Shown one piece after another: positions 2,946 through 33,777 of a DNA stretch of 33,777 nt; positions within the stretch are counted from its first letter, which is position 1; the number at the start of each line of letters is the position of its first letter. This DNA comes from Candidatus Nezhaarchaeota archaeon. GTDB taxonomy: Archaea > Thermoproteota > Methanomethylicia > Nezhaarchaeales > B40-G2. The DNA lies in contig JAOAKM010000009.1 of assembly GCA_026413605.1 (NCBI GenBank), forward strand, positions 1 through 33,777. The letters run 5' to 3'. The position numbers and the translations under genes were made by a program. Below the pieces are notes generated by a model, which was not told where the DNA came from, did no database searches, and worked only from the letters and a program-made list of their open reading frames with translations.

Positions 2946-4934
2946 ATGAGTAAAGCGTGGAAGTGGGACTACTCACAATACCCAGGGTACAGGATGTTCC
3001 CAAACCTCTTCAAGCCTATTAAGATAAGGAACCTAACAGTGCCAAATCGCATTAAGTACGCCGCTACTGAGGACAACTACAATACGCACGACGGCTTCAT
3101 CACCGACCGAGACGTCGCCTACATGAGGATGCGGGCTAGAGGCGTAGTCGGTGGAATTTGCACTATGCAGGGGGTGTACATGGACCCGAAGAAAGAGGGG
3201 CAGGGGTATGTGGGGCAGGCCGCGGCTTGGGACGATAAGTTCATACCTGGGCTTAAGCGCATAGCTGACGCTATCCACGAGGAGGGGGCAGTGGCTAACA
3301 TCCAGTTAATGCACTGCGGTAGAGTTGGCGGCGTCGAGATACCTTACTGCGTAGGGCCTTCAGCTATCCCGCAGAGGCTGAGGATCTTTAGGCCAGTGGT
3401 GGAGATGACTAGAGACGACATTAAGCTATGCGTTAAACAGCACGCCGAGGCTGCCCGCAGAGGCGTAGAGGCTGGCTTCGACATAGTCGAGATCTCCGGG
3501 ATAGTGGGCTACTTAATATCCAACTTCCTATCTAAGTACACTAATAGGCGCACCGATGAGTATGGAGGAGATATTGAGGGCCGCTGTAGGTTCATGGTGG
3601 AGATAATAGAGGCCGTTAGGGAGGCCGTTGGCCCAGACGTCCCGCTCATCATAAGGCTCTGCGCTGAAGAACTCCTAGACGACGTGGGCGGGAACACTCC
3701 CGAAGAGTGTATGGTGACCTATAGGATGGCTGAGAAAGCCGGCATCGATTGCATCAGCATTACCCAAGGCTGGCAGGAGTCGACGGTCCCAGTCATTACC
3801 AGGGACGTGCCTCAAGGGTACTGGCTCTACAACGCTAAGAGAGCTAGGGAGGCGGGGGTCAAGGTGCCCCTCTCGATGGCCTACAGGCTCTTCAAGCCGT
3901 CCATGGCCGACAGGGCGATAGCCGAGGGGATAATAGACATCTGGGAGATGTGTAGGCCAATGATAGCAGACCCGCTACTACCTAAGAAGGCCTTGGAGGG
4001 GAGGCTCGAGGACGTTAGGCCCTGCATCGCTTGTAACCTATGCTTAGCTAGGCTGTTCAGGGACGCGCCCATGACCTGCGCCACCAACCCCCTATGCGGC
4101 CATGAGTGGGATCCTGAGTGGCAGATTAAGCCAGCCGAGGTTAAGAAGAAGGTGATGGTAGTAGGCGGAGGCCCTGCAGGCTTAGAATGCGCTGCTGCAG
4201 CAGCCCAGAAGGGACACGAGGTACACCTGTACGATAAGCGGAGCGAGCTAGGCGGCCAGGTTCTATATGCCTCGAAGGGGCCCTTTGGGGAGGAGGAGCT
4301 CTACGAAGTAGTAAAGTACCAAGTCGCCCAGTGTAAGAAGGCAGGAGTAGTCTTCCACCTAGGCGTCGAGGTGACCCCTAGGTTAATGGAGGAGGAGGCC
4401 CCCGACGCTATCGTAATCGCCACTGGGGCTCGATTCGCTATCGAGAAGGTGCCTGGCTGGGATAGGCCTAACGTAGTGATGGCGCCAGATGTACTAGAGG
4501 GTAGGGTCGAGGCGGGGAAGAGAGTAGTAGTGTGGGGTGGTAAAGGTCCAGGGGTGGTGACCGCCCTATTCTTAGCCAATAGGGGTAGGAGGGTCACCTT
4601 GATCTCCAGGGACCGCAAGGTAGGCAAGGACGTTAACCCATCCTACTTGTGGAGGTACGTCATGAAGCTAGGCCAGCTAGGGGTAAAGGTGTACAGGAAC
4701 GCTACCGTCGAGGAGATAGGGGAGGGGGAGGTCGTGGTCAAGATCATACCCTACGACTTACGTATACCAGTAGCAGCCGACACCGTGGTCTACGCTGAGC
4801 GCGAGCCCGTGGCTGAGCTAGTGCAGGCCGCTAGGGAGCTGTGCCCAGAGGTCTACGTCATCGGGGACGCGCTAGTACCTAGGAGGCTGCACAACGCCAT
4901 TCACGACGGCTATAGGGTAGGTATGAGGCTGTAG
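2946..4934 (+). CDS. Old Yellow Enzyme-family NADH:flavin oxidoreductase / 2-enoate (2,4-dienoyl-CoA) reductase-like
   Basis: At 662 residues this has the length and architecture of 2,4-dienoyl-CoA reductase and clostridial 2-enoate reductase. An FMN-binding TIM barrel spans about residues 15-350 (VPNRIKYAATEDNY near the N-terminus, FLSKYTNRRTDEYGG mid-barrel). A [4Fe-4S] motif follows with cysteines at about 360, 363, 366 and 378. A C-terminal FAD/NAD(P) module starts at VMVVGGGPAGLE, near residue 405. The cysteine spacing is C-x2-C-x2-C-x11-C, one residue shorter than the usual C-x2-C-x3-C-x11-C. Such enzymes reduce a C=C bond conjugated to a carboxyl or CoA thioester. It is first in an operon with a DUF6125-like protein and a ferredoxin. 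Substrate unknown; an enoyl- or dienoyl-CoA fits the neighbourhood. Confidence 0.88.
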   Translation: MSKAWKWDYSQYPGYRMFPNLFKPIKIRNLTVPNRIKYAATEDNYNTHDGFITDRDVAYMRMRARGVVGGICTMQGVYMDPKKEGQGYVGQAAAWDDKFIPGLKRIADAIHEEGAVANIQLMHCGRVGGVEIPYCVGPSAIPQRLRIFRPVVEMTRDDIKLCVKQHAEAARRGVEAGFDIVEISGIVGYLISNFLSKYTNRRTDEYGGDIEGRCRFMVEIIEAVREAVGPDVPLIIRLCAEELLDDVGGNTPEECMVTYRMAEKAGIDCISITQGWQESTVPVITRDVPQGYWLYNAKRAREAGVKVPLSMAYRLFKPSMADRAIAEGIIDIWEMCRPMIADPLLPKKALEGRLEDVRPCIACNLCLARLFRDAPMTCATNPLCGHEWDPEWQIKPAEVKKKVMVVGGGPAGLECAAAAAQKGHEVHLYDKRSELGGQVLYASKGPFGEEELYEVVKYQVAQCKKAGVVFHLGVEVTPRLMEEEAPDAIVIATGARFAIEKVPGWDRPNVVMAPDVLEGRVEAGKRVVVWGGKGPGVVTALFLANRGRRVTLISRDRKVGKDVNPSYLWRYVMKLGQLGVKVYRNATVEEIGEGEVVVKIIPYDLRIPVAADTVVYAEREPVAELVQAARELCPEVYVIGDALVPRRLHNAIHDGYRVGMRL

Positions 4935-14893: not shown

Positions 14894-15943
14894 GTGGCTG
14901 AAGTTAAGTTCGGGATAGAGGGGCCTAACTACCCGTGGGAGACCATATGCGAAGTTGCTCAGCTAGCTGAGCAGCTCGGCTTCGACTCCTACTGGATGCC
15001 AGACCACACCGTGGCGACGGGGGTGAGGAGGTGGGACGCCCTAGAAGCCTGGGGGACGCTGTGCGCGCTGGCGATGAAGACTAAGACCATTAAGCTTGCC
15101 AGCGGAGTTAGCGATACCTATCGCTACCATCCCGCCGTGCTAGCGCAGAAGGCTACGACGTGCGACGTGATCTCGGGAGGTAGAGCGATACTCGGCATAG
15201 GCATAGGGGAGGCCATGAACCTAGTCCCCTACGGCATAGCTTACGATAAGCCCCTGTCGCGGACAGAAGAGGCCCTACATATCATTAAGAGGCTATGGGT
15301 GGAGGACTTCGTAGACTTTCAAGGAAAGTACTATAAGCTAGAGAAGGCGTTCCTACAGCCTAAGCCTATTCAGAAGCCCCACGTGCCCATATACATAGCT
15401 GCTAGCTCGCCTAAGACCATGGAGCTGGTCGGCAAGTACGGAGATGGCTGGCTCCCCGCTAACTTGACCGTGGATGGCTACAAGCGGGGAGTTGAAGTAG
15501 TTAGGGAGGCTGCCAAGAAGGCTGGGAGGGACCCTGAGAAGATAGACCCCGCCCACTTCATGTACGGCGTAGTAGCAAAAGATAGGGAGGAGGCTAGGAA
15601 GAGCGTGATGCTGCCAGCTAAGCTACTATTGCTCACGAGGCCTAGGATACTGGAGGCCATAGGCTATAAGCCGCCCACCTACGACTTCGAGATGACCTTT
15701 AAGCTAGTCTTCCCGAGGGATGCTGAGGCCTGGCTAGCTAAGGCTAAGGAGCTCCCAGACGAGGTAGTAGAGAAGTCGCCGATAGTCTTCGGTACGCCAG
15801 AAGACTTCATCGAGAGGTTTGACAAGTATGTTAAGGCGGGGTGCAGGCACTTCGTAATGAACTTCCAAGTGACCCCTAAGGTGTTAAAGGAGACCGTCCA
15901 GCTCTTTGCAGAGAAGGTAATCGCCTACTTCAAGAAGAAGTAA
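14894..15943 (+). CDS. LLM-class F420-dependent oxidoreductase (Mer-like)
   Basis: The 349 residues form a luciferase-like TIM barrel: VKFGIEGPNYPWETICEVAQ at the N-terminus, the FDSYWMPDHT motif, TIKLASGVSDTYRYHPAVLAQ, GRAILGIGIGEAMN, and PIYIAASSPKTMELVGKYGDGWLP. This architecture is shared by methylene-tetrahydromethanopterin reductase (Mer) and other F420-dependent dehydrogenases. The sequence alone does not decide whether it is Mer or one of the many paralogues acting on other substrates. It is convergent with the DUF35/thiolase genes and sits among fatty-acyl/aromatic-CoA genes. GTG start; an in-frame TTG a few codons upstream is possible. Confidence 0.85.
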   Translation: MAEVKFGIEGPNYPWETICEVAQLAEQLGFDSYWMPDHTVATGVRRWDALEAWGTLCALAMKTKTIKLASGVSDTYRYHPAVLAQKATTCDVISGGRAILGIGIGEAMNLVPYGIAYDKPLSRTEEALHIIKRLWVEDFVDFQGKYYKLEKAFLQPKPIQKPHVPIYIAASSPKTMELVGKYGDGWLPANLTVDGYKRGVEVVREAAKKAGRDPEKIDPAHFMYGVVAKDREEARKSVMLPAKLLLLTRPRILEAIGYKPPTYDFEMTFKLVFPRDAEAWLAKAKELPDEVVEKSPIVFGTPEDFIERFDKYVKAGCRHFVMNFQVTPKVLKETVQLFAEKVIAYFKKK

Positions 15944-15967: not shown

Positions 15968-16396
15968 TTAGGGCTTCACTAGCTCGAAGCTATACTTATC
16001 CTCGCCTATTTTTACTGGAGAAAGCCTGAGCTCCATTCCTAGCTCTAGCTCACTAGGGTTCAGCGACTTGCTAACCCTGGTAAAGACCTTTACTCCCTCT
16101 TCGCACTCAGCTACCGCTAATACGTACGGTACGTCGTCCTCGAAGCCCGTGGGGGCGAAGTGAGCTACTGTGTAGGTTACTAACCTACACCTTCCGCTTA
16201 GAGGAACCCACTCAAAGTCAGAGGTGAAACACTCAGGGCAGTCGGCTCGTGGAGGAAAGAATAGGCGGCCGCACTTCTTACAGCGAGTAGCAGCCACCTT
16301 TCCCTCTTCGAGGAGCTTGATGAAGTCCGAGACCTTGGACTCCTTAGTATAGGACACCTTCCCGAACCTCTCCATCCCGGTGGGCATGGCGCTCAC
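15968..16396 (-). CDS. DUF35 zinc-ribbon/OB-fold acyl-CoA-binding partner of thiolase
   Basis: The 142 residues show a rubredoxin-like zinc ribbon with Cys39, 42, 53 and 56 (RCKKCGRLFFPPRADCPEC), then an OB-fold (WVPLSGRCRLVTYTVAHFAP, VPYVLAVAECEEGVKVFTRV). In archaea DUF35 proteins bind SCP2-type thiolases, and in one characterised complex they bridge thiolase and HMG-CoA synthase as a shared CoA-binding channel. Here it overlaps the thiolase stop by 4 nt and no HMG-CoA synthase is nearby, so it more likely serves a catabolic or stand-alone thiolase. Confidence 0.9.
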   Translation of the reverse strand: MSAMPTGMERFGKVSYTKESKVSDFIKLLEEGKVAATRCKKCGRLFFPPRADCPECFTSDFEWVPLSGRCRLVTYTVAHFAPTGFEDDVPYVLAVAECEEGVKVFTRVSKSLNPSELELGMELRLSPVKIGEDKYSFELVKP

Positions 16397-17562
16397 CTCT
16401 TAAAGACTAGGACGTTGGCGTATAGGCCTACGCCGCCCACGTTGTGAACGAGGCCTACCTCGGCCCCCTTGACCTGGATGTCGGGGTGTATCTTGTAGGC
16501 ATCGCCACGTAGCTGATGGACTATCGTCCTAACTTGAGAGCCTCCGGTGGCCCCTATGGGGTGCCCCTTAGACAATAGGCCCCCGTCTACGTTGACGGGT
16601 ATCTTGCCCCCCACGTAGGTCTGCCCCTCCTCAATGAGCTTGCCTCCCTCGCCTGGCTTACAGAAGCCTAGGTTCTCATAGGCCATTATCTCAGCTATAG
16701 TGAAGCAGTCGTGAACTTCGGCGACGTCTATGTCCTTCGGCTCCACCCCAGCCATCCTGTAGGCCTCCCTAGAAGCCTCGATGGCGCAAGTCAGGCCTGT
16801 AAACAGCGTACGGTTGGCGAGGGTCATGGTGTCGGAGGCTGAGCCCCAGCCAGCTATCCACACTGGGGCGTCTGTTATCTTCTTAGCCTTATCTTCAGAG
16901 GCGAGTATGACGCACGAGGCCCCGTCGGCATTAGCGCAACAGTCAAGTAGCTTAAGAGGGCTAGCTATGACCCTAGACTTCAACACCTCGTCAGCGGTAA
17001 CTGGCTTGCGGAACATGGCCTTGGGGTTAAGCGCTCCGTACTTACTGTTCTTCTCCCTCACTTTAGCTAGCTGCCCCTCAGTGGTGCCGTAGTGCTTCAT
17101 GTGGGCGCGGGCGTACATGGCATACTGAGCCGGCATCATTATTCCGAACGGCGACTCCCACATAATGTCCCCTCCTCTACCCATTCGCTCCTGAGCCTCG
17201 GCTGAAGTCAGCTCGGACATCTTCTGGAACCCTATGACGGCGAGCACGTCCTTAAGCCCCGCCCTCACCATGCTGTAGGCGACGCCGACACCGGTAGTAC
17301 TAGAGGCGCAGATGGTCTCAACGAGGAAGGTGGGCCTCGGAGTTAACCCAAGGTACTCAGCCACGAGCCCCGAGGGAGTGCGCTGCTTATCGTACTCAGG
17401 TGCTGAGCAAACTATCGAGCCCTCGATTTCCTTAAGAGATAGGTTCAAGCCCTCCATAGCCTCCTTAAAGGCCTCGAAGCACAGCTCCCTAATCGATACC
17501 CCGCAGCTTCTGCTAAATGCGCTCTGACCTACACCTACTACAGCTACCTTCTTCACGGACAA
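16393..17562 (-). CDS. SCP2-type thiolase (acetyl-CoA C-acyltransferase)
   Basis: This 389-residue thiolase starts at GTG 17562. Cys85 in ETICASSTTG is the nucleophile position; EVHDCFTIAE and GHPIGATGG supply the His residues. The second catalytic cysteine of classical thiolases is replaced in the HNVGGVG motif, as in archaeal SCP2-like thiolases. It would cleave a 3-ketoacyl-CoA with CoA or condense two acetyl-CoA. With the adjacent BamA-like hydrolase and 3-hydroxyacyl-CoA dehydrogenase elsewhere in the window, beta-oxidation of a ring-cleavage product is a reasonable role. A T6 tract and TATA-like element upstream suggest its own promoter. Confidence 0.92.
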   Translation of the reverse strand: MSVKKVAVVGVGQSAFSRSCGVSIRELCFEAFKEAMEGLNLSLKEIEGSIVCSAPEYDKQRTPSGLVAEYLGLTPRPTFLVETICASSTTGVGVAYSMVRAGLKDVLAVIGFQKMSELTSAEAQERMGRGGDIMWESPFGIMMPAQYAMYARAHMKHYGTTEGQLAKVREKNSKYGALNPKAMFRKPVTADEVLKSRVIASPLKLLDCCANADGASCVILASEDKAKKITDAPVWIAGWGSASDTMTLANRTLFTGLTCAIEASREAYRMAGVEPKDIDVAEVHDCFTIAEIMAYENLGFCKPGEGGKLIEEGQTYVGGKIPVNVDGGLLSKGHPIGATGGSQVRTIVHQLRGDAYKIHPDIQVKGAEVGLVHNVGGVGLYANVLVFKR

Positions 17563-17659: not shown

Positions 17660-18664
17660 CTACTCAAGACTAGCTCCGCAGAGGCCGCAGTACTTAAACT
17701 TCTCAGGCAGGTACTTAGCCCCGCACTTAGGGCAGGTCTTCATTAATGGGCCGTAGGGTATGTGGGTGTCTCCCTTCTCAGCTATAAACTTCCTAACGCC
17801 AACGTCAAGGTAGTCTGGGCCCCGCTTCTCCTTAAAGTAGTGCCACATGCCTACTGCAGGCTCAACTGAGCCTGCGTGTACTGAGAACCACTCACGGCAG
17901 TGCTCAGTGGTCAAAGCCCAGATCCACTCCTTCCACAGGTTAATGTGGATCTTAGCGTAGCGCAGGCTACTTGGAGATAGGCTGAGCAGGGTCCTAGCTA
18001 GCTTCTTAACGGCATTGTCGAGCTCACCGTAGGGGACCACTTGATTAACCAGCCCCCACTCTAAGGCTGTCTTAGCGTCTATGAAGTCGCTAACGAAGCA
18101 CATCCACGCAGCTCTCCTAATGCCCACGGTGATGGGGAGCCACTGCGTCGAGCCGCCTATAGACGTCATCCCTACCCTAGGCCCAGGCTGTATGAAGCGT
18201 GCGTGGTCAGCGGCTATCGATAAGTCGCACGCTAAGTGGATCTCATTGCCCCCGCCAGCTACTACTCCATTGACGCGGGCTATGACAGGCTTCCCGCACT
18301 TCCTTATTAAGTCGAAGAACCTAAAGTAGGGGTCGAACCACTTGTAAAAGTCGCTGGGCTTCCTAGTGTATACTTCAGCGTACTCTATGACGTCTCCTCC
18401 AGTACAGAACCCTTTATCACCAGCCCCCGTGAACACTATGACCTGCACGTTGTCGTCCCACATGGCGTCCTCCATGGCCCTACAGAGCTCACGGAGCGTG
18501 TTGACGGTGTATGCGTTTAAGCGGTGGGGGCGGTTAATCATTATTAACGCCGTGTGGTCGTACCACTTCTTGTCATAGACTACTTCCTTGAACTCCATCC
18601 TAGCGATGCGCTCCATGTCCTCCTTGCTGTAGCCGTAGGCAGTGTAGGTAAACGAGCCGCTCAT
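17660..18664 (-). CDS. 6-oxocyclohex-1-ene-1-carbonyl-CoA hydrolase-like (BamA/Oah-type) protein with C-terminal zinc ribbon
   Basis: The 334 residues belong to the crotonase superfamily and resemble the BamA/Oah branch: a residue 85-95 motif GFCTGGDVIEYAEVY, KPVIARVNGVVAGGGNEIHLA with ACDLS, then the branch-typical FIQPGPRVG and IGGSTQWLPITVG (about 157-181), and a C-terminal EWFSVHAGSVEPAVGMWHYF resembling the tail of BamA. BamA hydrolyses 6-oxocyclohex-1-ene-1-carbonyl-CoA to a pimeloyl-CoA derivative, opening the aromatic-derived ring. Unlike ordinary BamA, it ends in a zinc ribbon (Cys311, 314, 326 and 329), like the ribbons of archaeal DUF35 proteins. Overall length is near BamA (about 375) only after this addition. 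A general enoyl-CoA hydratase/isomerase is the alternative. Confidence 0.72.
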   Translation of the reverse strand: MSGSFTYTAYGYSKEDMERIARMEFKEVVYDKKWYDHTALIMINRPHRLNAYTVNTLRELCRAMEDAMWDDNVQVIVFTGAGDKGFCTGGDVIEYAEVYTRKPSDFYKWFDPYFRFFDLIRKCGKPVIARVNGVVAGGGNEIHLACDLSIAADHARFIQPGPRVGMTSIGGSTQWLPITVGIRRAAWMCFVSDFIDAKTALEWGLVNQVVPYGELDNAVKKLARTLLSLSPSSLRYAKIHINLWKEWIWALTTEHCREWFSVHAGSVEPAVGMWHYFKEKRGPDYLDVGVRKFIAEKGDTHIPYGPLMKTCPKCGAKYLPEKFKYCGLCGASLE

Positions 18665-28786: not shown

Positions 28787-29302
28787 CTATGGCCACCTAG
28801 CCACAGTGCCTACGAGGAGCGCGAGGACGTATACTATTAGGACGGCGGCTAAGACCCCTAGCCATATGGATAGCACTGCCCTCCCCCTCTTCATCCCTAG
28901 CACGTGGGCAGCGAGCGAGGCGGTCCAAGCGCCTGTAAAGGGGAGCGGGATAGCTGTAAATATCGCGAGCCCTAGCGCCCCATACTTATCGACGTACGGC
29001 CCAGCCCTATTACGAGCACTCCACACTAGCTTAAAGTATAGGCGGGCTAGCTTCGTAAGGAGGCCGGGGCCATCTTCCCTCAGCTGCCTAGTCAAAAAGG
29101 CTTCGAGCCTACTTAGGAGAGAGAGGAGGAAGGGCACTGGGAGTGAGTTACCGATAATAGTCACAGAGAGCACGAGTACCGGGCTTAGGCCTAAGGCTAA
29201 GCCTAGCGGCACAGCCGCCCTAGCCTCGAGTAGGGGGAGGAGGGCTGTTATGAAGACGGTAAGCGCTCCTAATATTACGGGGGCCTCGAGGAGGCTACTC
29301 AC
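28787..29302 (-). CDS. COG2426 small multidrug export-like membrane protein
   Basis: The 171 residues have about four to five hydrophobic segments with the family motifs TALLPLLEARAAVPLGLALG at the N-terminus, VTIIGNSLPVPFLL and FTAIPLPFTGAWTASLAAHVLG. This is the Sm_multidrug_ex (PF06695-type) family, named for multidrug export but without firm function. Its start overlaps the enoyl-CoA hydratase stop by 8 nt, so it is the last gene of that operon. Transport of an acid related to the pathway is inference. Confidence 0.8.
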   Translation of the reverse strand: MSSLLEAPVILGALTVFITALLPLLEARAAVPLGLALGLSPVLVLSVTIIGNSLPVPFLLSLLSRLEAFLTRQLREDGPGLLTKLARLYFKLVWSARNRAGPYVDKYGALGLAIFTAIPLPFTGAWTASLAAHVLGMKRGRAVLSIWLGVLAAVLIVYVLALLVGTVARWP

Positions 29303-30080
29303 CTTTGTACATGGGCCTCCGCTTTTCTACGAAGGCTCTAACTCCTTCATGGGCGTCGTGGGTGGAGAACAAGAGGCTCCAGGCCTCAGCCTCGTAGTCT
29401 AATCCAGGGCTCAGCGTGTTCTCCAAGGCCTTGTTGAGCTGCTCTTTCGCTATCCTCAAGGCCACCGGGCTCTTTTCAGCTAGCTTAAGCGCTAAGGCCT
29501 CTGCTTCCTCCTTGAGCTTCTCGTGGGGCACTACCCTATTAACTATGCCTAGCTTCTCGGCCTCTACGGCTGAGACGCGGTCTCCAGTTAGCACTAGCAT
29601 CTTGGCCCTGCGAACGCCCACGAGCCGCCATAGCCTCTGGGTAGCCCCCCAGCCGGGCGTGACTCCCACATTAACCTCAGCTTGGCTAAATACAGCGTTT
29701 TCAGAGGCTATGGCTAAGTCGCAGCTGAGGACGAGCTCCATGCCCCCGCCCATGGCGTAGCCGCTGACTGCAGCTATTACTGGTTTAGGCAGCTCTTCTA
29801 TGAGCTTGAAGACCTTGTGGCCGAGCTTCGATAGCTCCCTGGCCTCCAGCGGAGTCCTAACGGCAGCCTCCTTTAGGTCTAGTCCAGCGCAGAAGGCTTT
29901 CTCGCCCGCCCCTGTTAAGATCACGGCCCTGACCTCAGGATCCCTGCCCGCCTCTCTCAGCGCTTCCTCGAGCTCTAAGAGGGCCTGTCTATTTAGGGCG
30001 TTGAGGGCCTGGGGCCTATTAATCGTTATCCAAGCCACCGGCCCTCTCTTTTCATATAAAATATTAGTGGGAGTGGGCAA
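29295..30080 (-). CDS. enoyl-CoA hydratase (crotonase; candidate dienoyl-CoA hydratase)
   Basis: A canonical 261-residue crotonase: AFCAGLDLKEA oxyanion-hole region, KPVIAAVSGYAMGGGMELVLSCDLA and FSQAEVNVGVTPGWGATQRL with both catalytic-region glutamates (in GGGMEL and QAEV). Such enzymes hydrate trans-2-enoyl-CoA. Given the nearby benzoyl-CoA-reductase-like and alcohol dehydrogenase genes, it could be cyclohexa-1,5-diene-1-carbonyl-CoA hydratase (Dch, about 258 residues); ordinary short-chain enoyl-CoA hydratase is equally compatible. Co-transcribed with the 3-hydroxyacyl-CoA dehydrogenase (32-nt gap). Confidence 0.9.
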   Translation of the reverse strand: MPTPTNILYEKRGPVAWITINRPQALNALNRQALLELEEALREAGRDPEVRAVILTGAGEKAFCAGLDLKEAAVRTPLEARELSKLGHKVFKLIEELPKPVIAAVSGYAMGGGMELVLSCDLAIASENAVFSQAEVNVGVTPGWGATQRLWRLVGVRRAKMLVLTGDRVSAVEAEKLGIVNRVVPHEKLKEEAEALALKLAEKSPVALRIAKEQLNKALENTLSPGLDYEAEAWSLLFSTHDAHEGVRAFVEKRRPMYKGE

Positions 30081-30112: not shown

Positions 30113-30994
30113 CTACTTCTTCTTAGTATAGTCGTAGAAGCCTCGGCCACTTTTACGCCCAGTCCAGCCAGCTCTCACCATTTGCTTTAAGATGACCGGC
30201 GGAGCGTACTTAGGGTCGTTAGTCTCCCGGTAGATAGACTCCAGCACGTCGAGGGTAGTGTCCAGCCCTATTAAGTCTAAGAGCTCCAGCGGGCCCATGG
30301 GCATGTTGTAGCCGAGCTTCATGGCCGCGTCTATGTCCTCAGCGGTGGCAATGCCCTGCTCATAAGCCCTCATGGCCTCAGCTAAGTACGGGAGCGCCAG
30401 CCTATTGGCTATGAAGCCCGGCACGTCCTTGACGACCACCGGCGTCTTGCCGAGCTTAATAGCTATGTCCTTAATTAGCTGAACAGTCTCATCAGACGTC
30501 GACAGCCCTCTAACTACCTCGACTAGCCTCATGACGGGGACGGGGTTAAAGAAGTGCATTCCAACCACCCGGTCTGGGCGTTTCGTAGCCCCAGCTAGGG
30601 CAGTTATGCTTAGCGTTGAAGTATTGCTGGCCAAGACCGTTTGCTTAGGACACTTCTCATCGAGCTCTTTAAAGAGCTGCTTCTTTAACTCGAGGTTCTC
30701 GAAGATGGCCTCTACGACGAGGTCGGCGTTTCTAGCCGCCTCATCTAGGCTAGTAGTGGTCTTAATCCTATTTAACGCAGCCTCTGCCTCTTCCTTCTTA
30801 AGCTTCCCCTTCTCCACAGCCTTATAGAGGCCGAAGGGGCCGTTCTTAATAGTTTCAACGCCCCTCCTCAAGACTTCTTCAGACACGTCTCTGGCTACTA
30901 CGTTAAAGCCAGACTGGGCGAAGACCTGCGCGATGCCGGTGCCCATGACGCCGAAGCCTACAACAGTTACGTTCCTAACGTCCTCAGCCCTCAT
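30113..30994 (-). CDS. 3-hydroxyacyl-CoA (3-hydroxybutyryl-CoA-type) dehydrogenase
   Basis: The 293 residues show the NAD site VTVVGFGVMGTGIAQVFAQS, the catalytic SNTSTLSI and GMHFFNPVPVMRLVEVV (active-site His and Asn region), and the C-terminal GFIANRLALPYLAEAM and LGYNMPMGPLELLDLIGLD. It oxidises a 3-hydroxyacyl-CoA with NAD+. ATG start with GGTG upstream and a TATA-like CTTATAAG at 31027-31036. Candidate for oxidising 3-hydroxypimeloyl-CoA after ring opening; chain-length specificity is not visible. Confidence 0.93.
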   Translation of the reverse strand: MRAEDVRNVTVVGFGVMGTGIAQVFAQSGFNVVARDVSEEVLRRGVETIKNGPFGLYKAVEKGKLKKEEAEAALNRIKTTTSLDEAARNADLVVEAIFENLELKKQLFKELDEKCPKQTVLASNTSTLSITALAGATKRPDRVVGMHFFNPVPVMRLVEVVRGLSTSDETVQLIKDIAIKLGKTPVVVKDVPGFIANRLALPYLAEAMRAYEQGIATAEDIDAAMKLGYNMPMGPLELLDLIGLDTTLDVLESIYRETNDPKYAPPVILKQMVRAGWTGRKSGRGFYDYTKKK

Positions 30995-31143: not shown

Positions 31144-32160
31144 TTAAGGGACTACTATAGCCCTAGTTACTTTTCCTTCTTCGAGGAGCTTAAAGGCCTC
31201 GTTAACTTCCTCTAGAGGTAGCTTGTGCGACACTAGCAGCCTTATCTTTCCAGCTCTAACTAGCTCTATGGCTCCGTAGTAATCTATGGGCCTGCACCCC
31301 ATTACCCCCTTAATCTCCAGCTCTCTAAACATTAGCCTACCGGCGTTAATCGAAATAGGCTTATCTGAGTAACCGATTACGATGAGGCGCCCGCCCTGCC
31401 TCACGCTCTCAAAGGCCTGCTCCATTACCTGGGGCACGCCAGTACAGTCGAAGGCTACGTCGACTCCGCCACCAGTCAGCCTCCTTATAGTCCTGAGGGG
31501 CTCCTTATCCTCCCTCAAGTTAATGATCTGCCACGCGCCGAGCTCTCTCGCCAGCCTTAAGTTGTCTTCACGCCTGCCTAGCGCTATTACTCTGCCTCCG
31601 AGCGCTGCGGCTATTTGGACAGTGTTCAGCCCAAGCCCTCCAGTAGCCCCCCATACAGCTACAGTTTCACCTGGCTTAAGCTCAGCTCGCCTAACGACTG
31701 CTGCATAGGGGCTTGTGACTGCATCAGCTATTACCGCCCCCTCTTGTAGAGGTACTTCGTCAGGTAGCTTAATGAGGTCCTTGGCTGGGGCCTTGAAGTA
31801 CTCCGCGTACCCTCCATCGATCATGTTGCCCACCATTAGTAAGTTCAAGCATATGTTCTCACGCCCTATGCGACAGTAGTAGCACTTGCCGCAGGGGATT
31901 ATGGCGGGGACGAGTACCCGGTCTCCTACCTTAACCTCCTTTACGCCCTCGCCCACTTCAGCCACCGTACCGGAGATCTCGTGCCCAAGTATCATGGGCG
32001 GCTTCTTAAACGTGGGGACGCCCTTTAAGTAATGTAGGTCAGTATGACATACGCCGCAAGCAGCCACCCTAATTAGCGCCTCACCAGGCCCTGGCTTAGG
32101 CGTTGGGTATTCTTCAACCTTCAGCGGCTGATTCGGGCCGTAAAACACAGCAGCCTTCAA
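31144..32160 (-). CDS. zinc-dependent alcohol dehydrogenase (candidate 6-hydroxycyclohex-1-ene-1-carbonyl-CoA dehydrogenase)
   Basis: A 338-residue medium-chain dehydrogenase: catalytic zinc Cys in AACGVCHTDLHYL, GHEISG, structural zinc cysteines in PCGKCYYCRIGRENIC, and the nucleotide fold VAVWGATGGLGLNTVQIAA (GATGGLG, one step off the classic GxGxxG). Starts at TTG 32160, with GGTGG and a TATA-like element upstream. In the Thauera-type benzoyl-CoA pathway the Had enzyme (also a zinc ADH) oxidises the 6-hydroxy intermediate. Position next to benzoyl-CoA-reductase-like genes supports that reading, but a general alcohol dehydrogenase cannot be excluded. Confidence 0.85.
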   Translation of the reverse strand: MKAAVFYGPNQPLKVEEYPTPKPGPGEALIRVAACGVCHTDLHYLKGVPTFKKPPMILGHEISGTVAEVGEGVKEVKVGDRVLVPAIIPCGKCYYCRIGRENICLNLLMVGNMIDGGYAEYFKAPAKDLIKLPDEVPLQEGAVIADAVTSPYAAVVRRAELKPGETVAVWGATGGLGLNTVQIAAALGGRVIALGRREDNLRLARELGAWQIINLREDKEPLRTIRRLTGGGVDVAFDCTGVPQVMEQAFESVRQGGRLIVIGYSDKPISINAGRLMFRELEIKGVMGCRPIDYYGAIELVRAGKIRLLVSHKLPLEEVNEAFKLLEEGKVTRAIVVP

Positions 32161-32403: not shown

Positions 32404-33582
32404 TTGACCAGCGCTGAAGACCTCCTAGCCGAGTTCAAGGAAGTGGTGGAGAAGAGGCATGAGTACGCTAAGGCATGGAAGGAGCGAACTAACGGGAAGG
32501 TAGTGGGATTCTTCTGTACCTACGTCCCAGAGGAGATATTCTACGCAGTCGACAAAGTCCTACCAGTAAGGATTGCCCCGGGCCACTCGCTCGAGGGAAT
32601 GAGCGTAGTAGAGCCGTACATATACTCAATGTTCTGCCCGCTCTGCCGTGACTGCTGCGCCCAGGGCTTCCTAGGGCACTACGACTACCTCGACGGCATA
32701 TGCATAGGGCAGTCCTGCATACATATGAGGCAGGCGTTTAATGCCTGGAAGTTCTTCATGAAGCCAGATAGGGGCAAGGAGTACGAGTTCGCGTACTACA
32801 TCTACGTGCCGCACGGAGTCCAAAACCCGCCGGCCGTGCCGTACATGGCTGCTGAAGTAGGCGAGTTTAAGAGGGCTGTGGAGAAATGGGTAGGTAGGGA
32901 GATAGTAGATGCAGACGTGGATAAGGGCATTAAGATCATGAACAAGGCCCGCCGCCTCCTCGCGCGGCTCTACGAGCTAAGGAAGCGCGAGGAGCCGCCG
33001 ATCACGGGCACCGAGGCTCTGTATGTAACGCTAGCCGCTCAGTATAGCGATAAGCGAGAGTACGTAGATAAGCTCGAGAAGCTAGTGAAGCTCCTGCCTG
33101 ATCGTAGGCTAGAGCGCCAGGTCGGGTTCAGGTTAATGACCCTGAGCAGCTTCAACGATTTCGTCGACTTCATAGACAAGGTGGAGGGCCTAGGCTCCAC
33201 CGTAGTGGTTGATGAGCAGTGCTCAGGCTTTAGATACTTCTGGGGGGAGGTTGATGAGAAGAGCCCGGACCGGGCAATGGCGATTGCTGAGCGCTACATA
33301 CTTAAGAGGGTGCCTTGCCCAGCTAAGGACTGGCCTGAGCGCTGGAGGCTGGAGCACATCATGAGGCTGGCGAAGGAGTGGAAAGTGCAGGGAGCCCTCT
33401 ACCTACAGTATAAGTTCTGCGACCCGCATGAGCTAGACGTAGTCGCCGTCAGGGATGCTCTAAGCGAGGCGAAGATACCCATGTACTTCCTAGAGCTAGA
33501 CGTAACCGTGCCCTGGGGCCAGTTTAGGACTAGGGTAGAGGCGTTCTTCGAGGCTCTGGGAGGTATCGAAGAACTGTTTTAG
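32404..33582 (+). CDS. bcrC: class I benzoyl-CoA reductase subunit C-like (BcrC/BzdN/HgdB family)
   Basis: The 392 residues have the order of BcrC/BzdN: an N-terminal helix with YAKAWKERTNGKVVGFFCTYVP, a cysteine-rich MFCPLCRDCCAQGF segment (about 77-89), YDYLDGICIGQSCIHMRQAF, then the central KIMNKARRLLARLYELRKRE helix and C-terminal GSTVVVDEQCSG and LQYKFCDPHELD. These fit the 2-hydroxyacyl-CoA dehydratase/benzoyl-CoA reductase superfamily, where cysteines bind a [4Fe-4S] cluster at the catalytic interface. Benzoyl-CoA reductase needs ATP-dependent A and D subunits to supply electrons; these should lie beyond the right edge. TTG start. A 2-hydroxyacyl-CoA dehydratase is the alternative. Confidence 0.75.
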   Translation: MTSAEDLLAEFKEVVEKRHEYAKAWKERTNGKVVGFFCTYVPEEIFYAVDKVLPVRIAPGHSLEGMSVVEPYIYSMFCPLCRDCCAQGFLGHYDYLDGICIGQSCIHMRQAFNAWKFFMKPDRGKEYEFAYYIYVPHGVQNPPAVPYMAAEVGEFKRAVEKWVGREIVDADVDKGIKIMNKARRLLARLYELRKREEPPITGTEALYVTLAAQYSDKREYVDKLEKLVKLLPDRRLERQVGFRLMTLSSFNDFVDFIDKVEGLGSTVVVDEQCSGFRYFWGEVDEKSPDRAMAIAERYILKRVPCPAKDWPERWRLEHIMRLAKEWKVQGALYLQYKFCDPHELDVVAVRDALSEAKIPMYFLELDVTVPWGQFRTRVEAFFEALGGIEELF

Positions 33583-33600: not shown

Positions 33601-33777
33601 ATGGTTAGGAAGGATGTGCCTGAATACCCGACTGAGCCTCTGAGGTGTTGGGATGAAGCGAAGGCGCTTAGAAGAAAGTATTACGAAGACTACCTAACTG
33701 CTCACGAGAAGGGGGCTATAAGGTGGGCTGGTGGAGCCTGGACCTTCAGCGCCATACCGGAGGGCCTAGGAGACGAC
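33601..33777 (+). CDS. bcrB: class I benzoyl-CoA reductase subunit B-like (BcrB/BzdO), 5' end only
   Basis: Read by hand from ATG 33601, with GGAGGTGGGAGG immediately upstream, the 59 residues begin with YPTEPLRCWDEAKALR, then KYYEDYLTAHEKGAIRWAGG and WTFSAIPEGLGDD. This beginning is highly typical of the second catalytic subunit of class I benzoyl-CoA reductase (BzdO/BadE/BcrB group), which binds benzoyl-CoA with BcrC. The frame is open at the window edge, so the gene is truncated only by the window. An 18-nt gap from the BcrC-like gene indicates one operon. Confidence 0.78.
   Translation, partial: MVRKDVPEYPTEPLRCWDEAKALRRKYYEDYLTAHEKGAIRWAGGAWTFSAIPEGLGDD

Follow-up and report, generated by a model that had tools for sequence, protein, structure and literature searches.

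A zinc-ribbon-tailed sister branch of the BamA/Oah ring hydrolases in archaea and some bacteria, with a predicted role in benzoyl-CoA degradation

The window analysed here, a stretch of 33,777 nucleotides from a Candidatus Nezhaarchaeota archaeon (assembly GCA_026413605.1, contig JAOAKM010000009.1, positions 1 to 33,777), carries on its minus strand a single open frame (17660-18664, read from 18664 to 17660; window coordinates throughout) encoding a putative BamA-like ring hydrolase of 334 amino acids. The protein is composed of a crotonase domain (residues 25-285, approximately), a linker and a four-cysteine zinc ribbon (residues 311-333; 17663-17734, minus strand), and its C-terminal end, KTCPKCGAKYLPEKFKYCGLCGASLE, has cysteines at positions 311, 314, 326 and 329. 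An earlier note on this DNA had proposed a hydrolase of the BamA/Oah branch with such a ribbon, quoting the motifs GFCTGGD-x-IEYAE-x-Y and IGG-x-T-x2-LP-x2-VG. Both are present in the translated frame (GFCTGGDVIEYAEVY and IGGSTQWLPITVG), the cysteines are exactly where they were placed, and the observation was correct in every detail that can be checked, the strand being the only addition. Pfam assigns the protein to ECH_1 (158 bits), with a weak match of the tail to Zn_Ribbon_1 (E 2e-4, below the gathering score). Downstream, on the same strand, are genes for a candidate 3-oxopimeloyl-CoA thiolase (16393-17562; Thiolase_C_1, PRK06064-type, NCBIfam 444 bits with a cut-off of 420) and for its presumed partner, a DUF35 protein (15968-16396; OB_ChsH2_C and zf-ChsH2) that matches chain E of the thiolase/DUF35 complex 6esq. 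Both neighbours had been named in the earlier note and are confirmed by Pfam.

Orthologs of the hydrolase in related genomes have 93% and 53-55% identity. The closest relatives are found in a Thermoprotei archaeon record (93%) and a Candidatus Hecatellales archaeon (locus L018, 83-87%), followed by an archaeon of a second archaeal phylum, which we take to be the Asgard archaea (51%), and two Zixiibacteriota (49-50%). Of 398 genomes sampled from the phylum of the window, 8 have the ribboned hydrolase, and five of these are from outside the window's order; it was also identified in 17 of 133 Zixiibacteriota genomes and, as full-length matches, in 18 of 228 genomes of the presumed Asgard phylum. 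The source genomes are mostly draft assemblies. The domain combination, which it had been suggested to seek across archaea, thus occurs in several archaeal lineages but is not restricted to them, and an archaeal or Hecatellales novelty is ruled out, the bacterial Zixiibacteriota carrying the same tail. All 44 loci of the clade (39 in the first set and five added later) have the four-cysteine ribbon at the C-terminus, and none of 18 bona fide BamA proteins has it, as the earlier note had supposed for bacterial BamA. Because all four cysteines are invariant across the clade, to the same degree as the catalytic loop, the ribbon is not a chance feature; it marks a protein family. Their invariance and ribbon spacing suggest that the tail binds zinc. 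Among 20 clade members, the ribbon matched DZR in 19 and Zn_Ribbon_1 in 14. No match to zf-ChsH2 (PF12172) was found for the window hydrolase, and three of 20 relatives gave a weak one (best E 0.0075). A ribbon borrowed from DUF35 was rejected, since the Pfam matches favour these general ribbon models.

Maximum-likelihood trees, built without the ribbon columns, place the ribboned proteins in one group (support 90/91, and 88/94 in a larger tree) that is sister to BamA (100/99, and 99/96 in the larger tree). A MenB/BadI-like group is separate from these two, and the enoyl-CoA hydratases, among which a placement had been named as the outcome contradicting the BamA assignment, lie outside (100/99). 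Forcing the ribboned proteins together with MenB/BadI was rejected by the approximately unbiased (AU) test (p-AU 0.009), and the grouping with BadI/MenB was discarded on this result; the search for BadI in one bacterial class returned only matches below cut-off, so that the rows used as controls are no more than "BadI-like". Two tail-less crotonases of the presumed Asgard phylum (L087 and L088) have Glu141 and Gly161 without the Y95/W249/W259 pattern of BamA, and represent a further uncharacterised branch near MenB/BadI/BamA.

As BamA lies on a long branch, residues were examined as further evidence. Y52, E94, Y95, W249 and W259 are common to the ribboned proteins and BamA and, as a set, are essentially not found in other groups; a GG-x2-x2-LP motif is also shared. 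The first catalytic glutamate of the hydratases, Glu141, is kept in all 40 ribboned proteins, all 18 BamA proteins and all nine enoyl-CoA hydratases, and is valine in the ten BadI/MenB sequences. The second is replaced by Gly161 in the ribboned proteins, BamA and BadI/MenB, and position 168, which holds the catalytic aspartate of BadI/MenB, is alanine or serine in 40 of 40 ribboned rows. The combination of Glu141 and Gly161 is as would be expected if hydration of a C=C bond preceded the opening of a ring. The ribboned proteins differ from BamA in the added ribbon and in the absence of the BamA insert of about 50 residues, which follows residue 211. MenB and BadI (TIGR01929 and TIGR03210), which resemble the hydrolase as ring-forming or ring-opening crotonases with similar model scores and Gly161, differ in lacking Glu141 and the ribbon, in having aspartate at 168 and in forming their own clade.

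In known bzd and bcr operons there is a slot for oah/bzdY, and this slot is held by the ribboned hydrolase in locus L101, where the gene order is bzdV-M-Q-P-O-N-had-dch-ribboned hydrolase. Three reductase subunits of L101 are over their curated cut-offs: BzdN (490 bits, cut-off 454), BzdO (687, cut-off 449) and BzdQ (429, cut-off 380). The arrangement is repeated in L104 and L106-L109, and other reductase subunits are near the ribboned gene in L126, L127, L130 and L132. In L184, genes for an aldehyde:ferredoxin oxidoreductase (AOR) protein, the ribboned hydrolase, Had and Dch are consecutive, with reductase genes in addition, and L186 has thiolase-DUF35-LLM, the ribboned hydrolase, Dch and bzdNOPQMV within 20 kb. 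Overall, reductase subunits lie within 10 kb of the ribboned gene in 15 of 39 loci; since some of the genomes are related, the loci in such neighbour counts are not independent of one another. Standard BamA over the cut-off was found in none of the 38 genomes that hold a ribboned protein, which therefore probably replaces BamA in its hosts.

The right end of the window carries, on the plus strand, a BzdN-like subunit of an ATP-dependent benzoyl-CoA reductase (32404-33582; TIGR03190 384 bits, cut-off 454), 54% identical to the over-cut-off BzdN of L101, and the start of bzdO (33601-33777), which is truncated where the contig stops. In the same genome, contig C19 (L175:1-5776) continues with bzdP-Q-M-V. 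Because the window ends and C19 begins inside bzdO, the two contigs probably adjoin, jointly giving bzdN-O-P-Q-M-V. Next to bzdN, on the minus strand, are a zinc alcohol dehydrogenase that is a candidate Had, or 6-hydroxycyclohex-1-ene-1-carbonyl-CoA dehydrogenase (31144-32160; TIGR03201 233 bits, cut-off 339; 47-57% identical to the alcohol dehydrogenase of related bcr/bzd operons), a 3-hydroxyacyl-CoA dehydrogenase that is a candidate 3-hydroxypimeloyl-CoA dehydrogenase (30113-30994), and an ordinary enoyl-CoA hydratase (29295-30080) keeping both catalytic glutamate positions. A Dch-like crotonase (L005) is on contig C24. Since all of these are in one genome together with the hydrolase, the genome encodes candidates for the complete route that leads from benzoyl-CoA to the opened ring, in which the ribboned hydrolase would supply the ring-opening step.

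Combining these results, we propose with considerable confidence that the hydrolase is the ring-cleaving enzyme of an ATP-dependent (Bzd-type) benzoyl-CoA pathway, in a ribboned and insert-less sister branch of BamA/Oah; the assignment to that branch, made in the earlier note, is backed by both trees, the residue pattern and the operon slot and partners. What the data show directly is the sequence, the ribbon, the phylogeny, the residue pattern and the operon context; we infer the substrate, the mechanism and zinc binding. With the thioester bound in the crotonase oxyanion hole, water would be added to the C=C bond, Glu141 probably acting as catalytic acid/base. Hydrolysis of the C-C bond next to the ring ketone would then yield 3-hydroxypimeloyl-CoA, to be processed further by the 3-hydroxyacyl-CoA dehydrogenase and the thiolase/DUF35 pair.

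Several observations weigh against this proposal. The BamA/Oah equivalog model TIGR03200 gives the window hydrolase 160 bits, with a curated cut-off of 464, and covers residues 38-211 only; the MenB model scores slightly higher (166 bits) and BadI lower (151 bits), all three far under their cut-offs. The active sites of the ribboned proteins and BamA are not identical, D174 of BamA being glutamine and H164 valine in the former. The Had and Dch of L101 have these models as closest or near-closest, but are below the curated cut-offs; the neighbours at most Zixiibacteriota loci are only SDR, thiolase and enoyl-CoA hydratase genes; and in the window itself about 13 kb separate the hydrolase gene from those of the Bzd reductase. 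The BamA branch measures about two changes per site, and part of the attraction could be an artefact; residues and operons nevertheless agree with the BamA placement. The AlphaFold model of the hydrolase, from ten input sequences, is mediocre (predicted local distance difference test, pLDDT, 70). A Foldseek search of the PDB with this model returned generic crotonases, and a search of the PDB copy for a solved BamA found none.

The active-site substitutions and the missing insert, together with nearby genes for an OYE-type reductase and an F420-type enzyme, would also suit a ring hydrolase acting on another cyclic substrate, for instance a substituted or bicyclic cyclohexenone-carboxyl-CoA. 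This is distinctly unlikely given that Bzd-type reductase subunits over benzoyl-CoA-specific cut-offs are encoded in the same operons. The same operons include a Had-like dehydrogenase, which is part of the BamA route and speaks against a BadI-like enzyme that would convert 2-ketocyclohexanecarboxyl-CoA to pimeloyl-CoA in a Rhodopseudomonas-type route. BadI does share the crotonase neighbourhood of the tree with the ribboned clade, and for the L019 protein the BadI (196 bits) and MenB (198) models score at least as high as Oah (193). However, the AU test rejects a single clade with MenB/BadI, the catalytic aspartate of that group is replaced by alanine or serine, and Glu141 is kept where BadI/MenB have valine, so that we judge such an activity quite improbable. 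The ECH_1 match and the crotonase fold are also compatible with a zinc-tailed enoyl-CoA hydratase of the ordinary kind, but the replacement of the second catalytic glutamate by Gly161 in all members and the position of the hydratases outside the group make this extremely improbable.

The role of the ribbon is a separate question. It had been suggested in the earlier note that the ribbon docks the hydrolase into a thiolase/DUF35 assembly, coupling ring opening to thiolysis, which is compatible with the ring-cleaving function proposed here. Thiolase and DUF35 genes are indeed near the ribboned gene in the window, L015, L110-L112, L114 and L116, and DUF35-thiolase complexes with a zinc ribbon have been solved (6esq, 7pxp with a BbsA-type protein, and 6ok1 with ChsH2). 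When tail-less BamA loci are used as a control, however, Thiolase_C_1 and DUF35 occur within 10 kb of 10 of 18 tail-less BamA genes and of 9 of 39 ribboned genes; among the later ribboned loci, two of five have the pair. Homologs of the window thiolase, 56-64% identical, are themselves found beside bona fide BamA. At L018, whose protein is so close to that of the window, neither gene is adjacent, and the pair is absent from the ribboned loci of Zixiibacteriota and from L101-L109. The DUF35 proteins, which share with the hydrolase a small zinc ribbon and, in some loci, the neighbourhood, have a zf-ChsH2 ribbon followed by an OB fold, whereas the hydrolase tail is a bare ribbon of the general Zn_Ribbon_1/DZR type. 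In addition, a dehydrogenase step stands between ring opening and thiolysis, and direct coupling would skip an enzyme. Docking of this kind is not supported by the data and seems very unlikely. Because tail-less BamA has the pair, and L018, Zixiibacteriota and L101-type loci have neither gene, the thiolase/DUF35 pairing marks the pathway and not the ribbon.

In crotonases the C-terminal region contributes to the oligomer and to the active site. Our best guess is that the ribbon has a structural, intrinsic role, perhaps as a brace for the divergent C-terminal region or for an oligomer interface; this is favoured by its strict conservation in archaeal and bacterial hosts whose neighbouring genes differ. 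The same conservation would alternatively fit a partner that every host possesses. In our estimate it is unlikely that the ribbon serves for docking or gating and links ring opening to such a partner (for instance Had, Dch or the reductase, not the thiolase), so that the ATP-dependent ring-reduction pathway would form a physical assembly in which reactive cyclic intermediates are channelled. Thermal adaptation alone is less attractive as a reason for the ribbon, since the host range is broad.

The gene bamA is a common marker for anaerobic aromatic degraders. Because the ribboned proteins fall far short of the cut-off of the curated BamA model, surveys that rely on it would overlook ring opening in the archaeal and bacterial hosts of this branch. 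The branch, an overlooked sister of bacterial BamA, most likely opens the dearomatised benzene ring during the anaerobic breakdown of aromatic compounds. It also offers a crotonase to which a strictly conserved zinc module has been added, a case open to experimental test. For Asgard Hermodarchaeota, gene clusters of benzoyl-CoA degradation that include Had and Dch have been reported, as have Oah genes (PMC8163825), and archaeal benzoyl-CoA degradation is therefore not new. As in the loci described here, Bcr subunits, BzdV, ferredoxin, Dch and Had are on one archaeal contig, with Oah reported in the genomes; some of these Oah may belong to the ribboned branch, although the main text of that paper mentions neither zinc nor a separate hydrolase branch. 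Degradation of benzoyl-CoA is not a topic in the main text of a paper on the metabolism of Hecatellales (PMC9635834). Our search of the open-access literature, which did not extend to most subscription journals, turned up neither a zinc ribbon on this hydrolase nor the ribboned branch as such, and no earlier description of a benzoyl-CoA pathway for the window's genome, which is close to Hecatellales. As far as searched, the predicted function is known, and the architecture and the branch are new.

An F420-type LLM oxidoreductase (14894-15943, plus strand) is a conserved neighbour at archaeal loci only: it keeps with thiolase/DUF35 and the ribboned hydrolase in L014, L015, L110-L112, L186 and L187, is absent at the 18 bacterial BamA loci, and may perform a redox step of the archaeal pathway. 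At L018 (L018:5077-11235), from a Hecatellales metagenome-assembled genome, the ribboned hydrolase has an isochorismatase-like gene and HdrA/ferredoxin-like genes beside it instead of thiolase and DUF35. An AOR-like protein with ferredoxin and/or a MoaD-like protein recurs beside the ribboned hydrolase (L184:3974-6294, L185:3327-5671, L186:4319-7206, L110 and L019); at the archaeal loci with this protein the reductase is nonetheless of the ATP-dependent type. At the other end of the window, an OYE/2,4-dienoyl-CoA-reductase-like protein (2946-4934) has a 57% identical homolog directly beside bona fide BamA in L135. Two adjacent HdrA-like flavoproteins (3-2806) lie beside the OYE gene and are possibly an electron-transfer module for the pathway.
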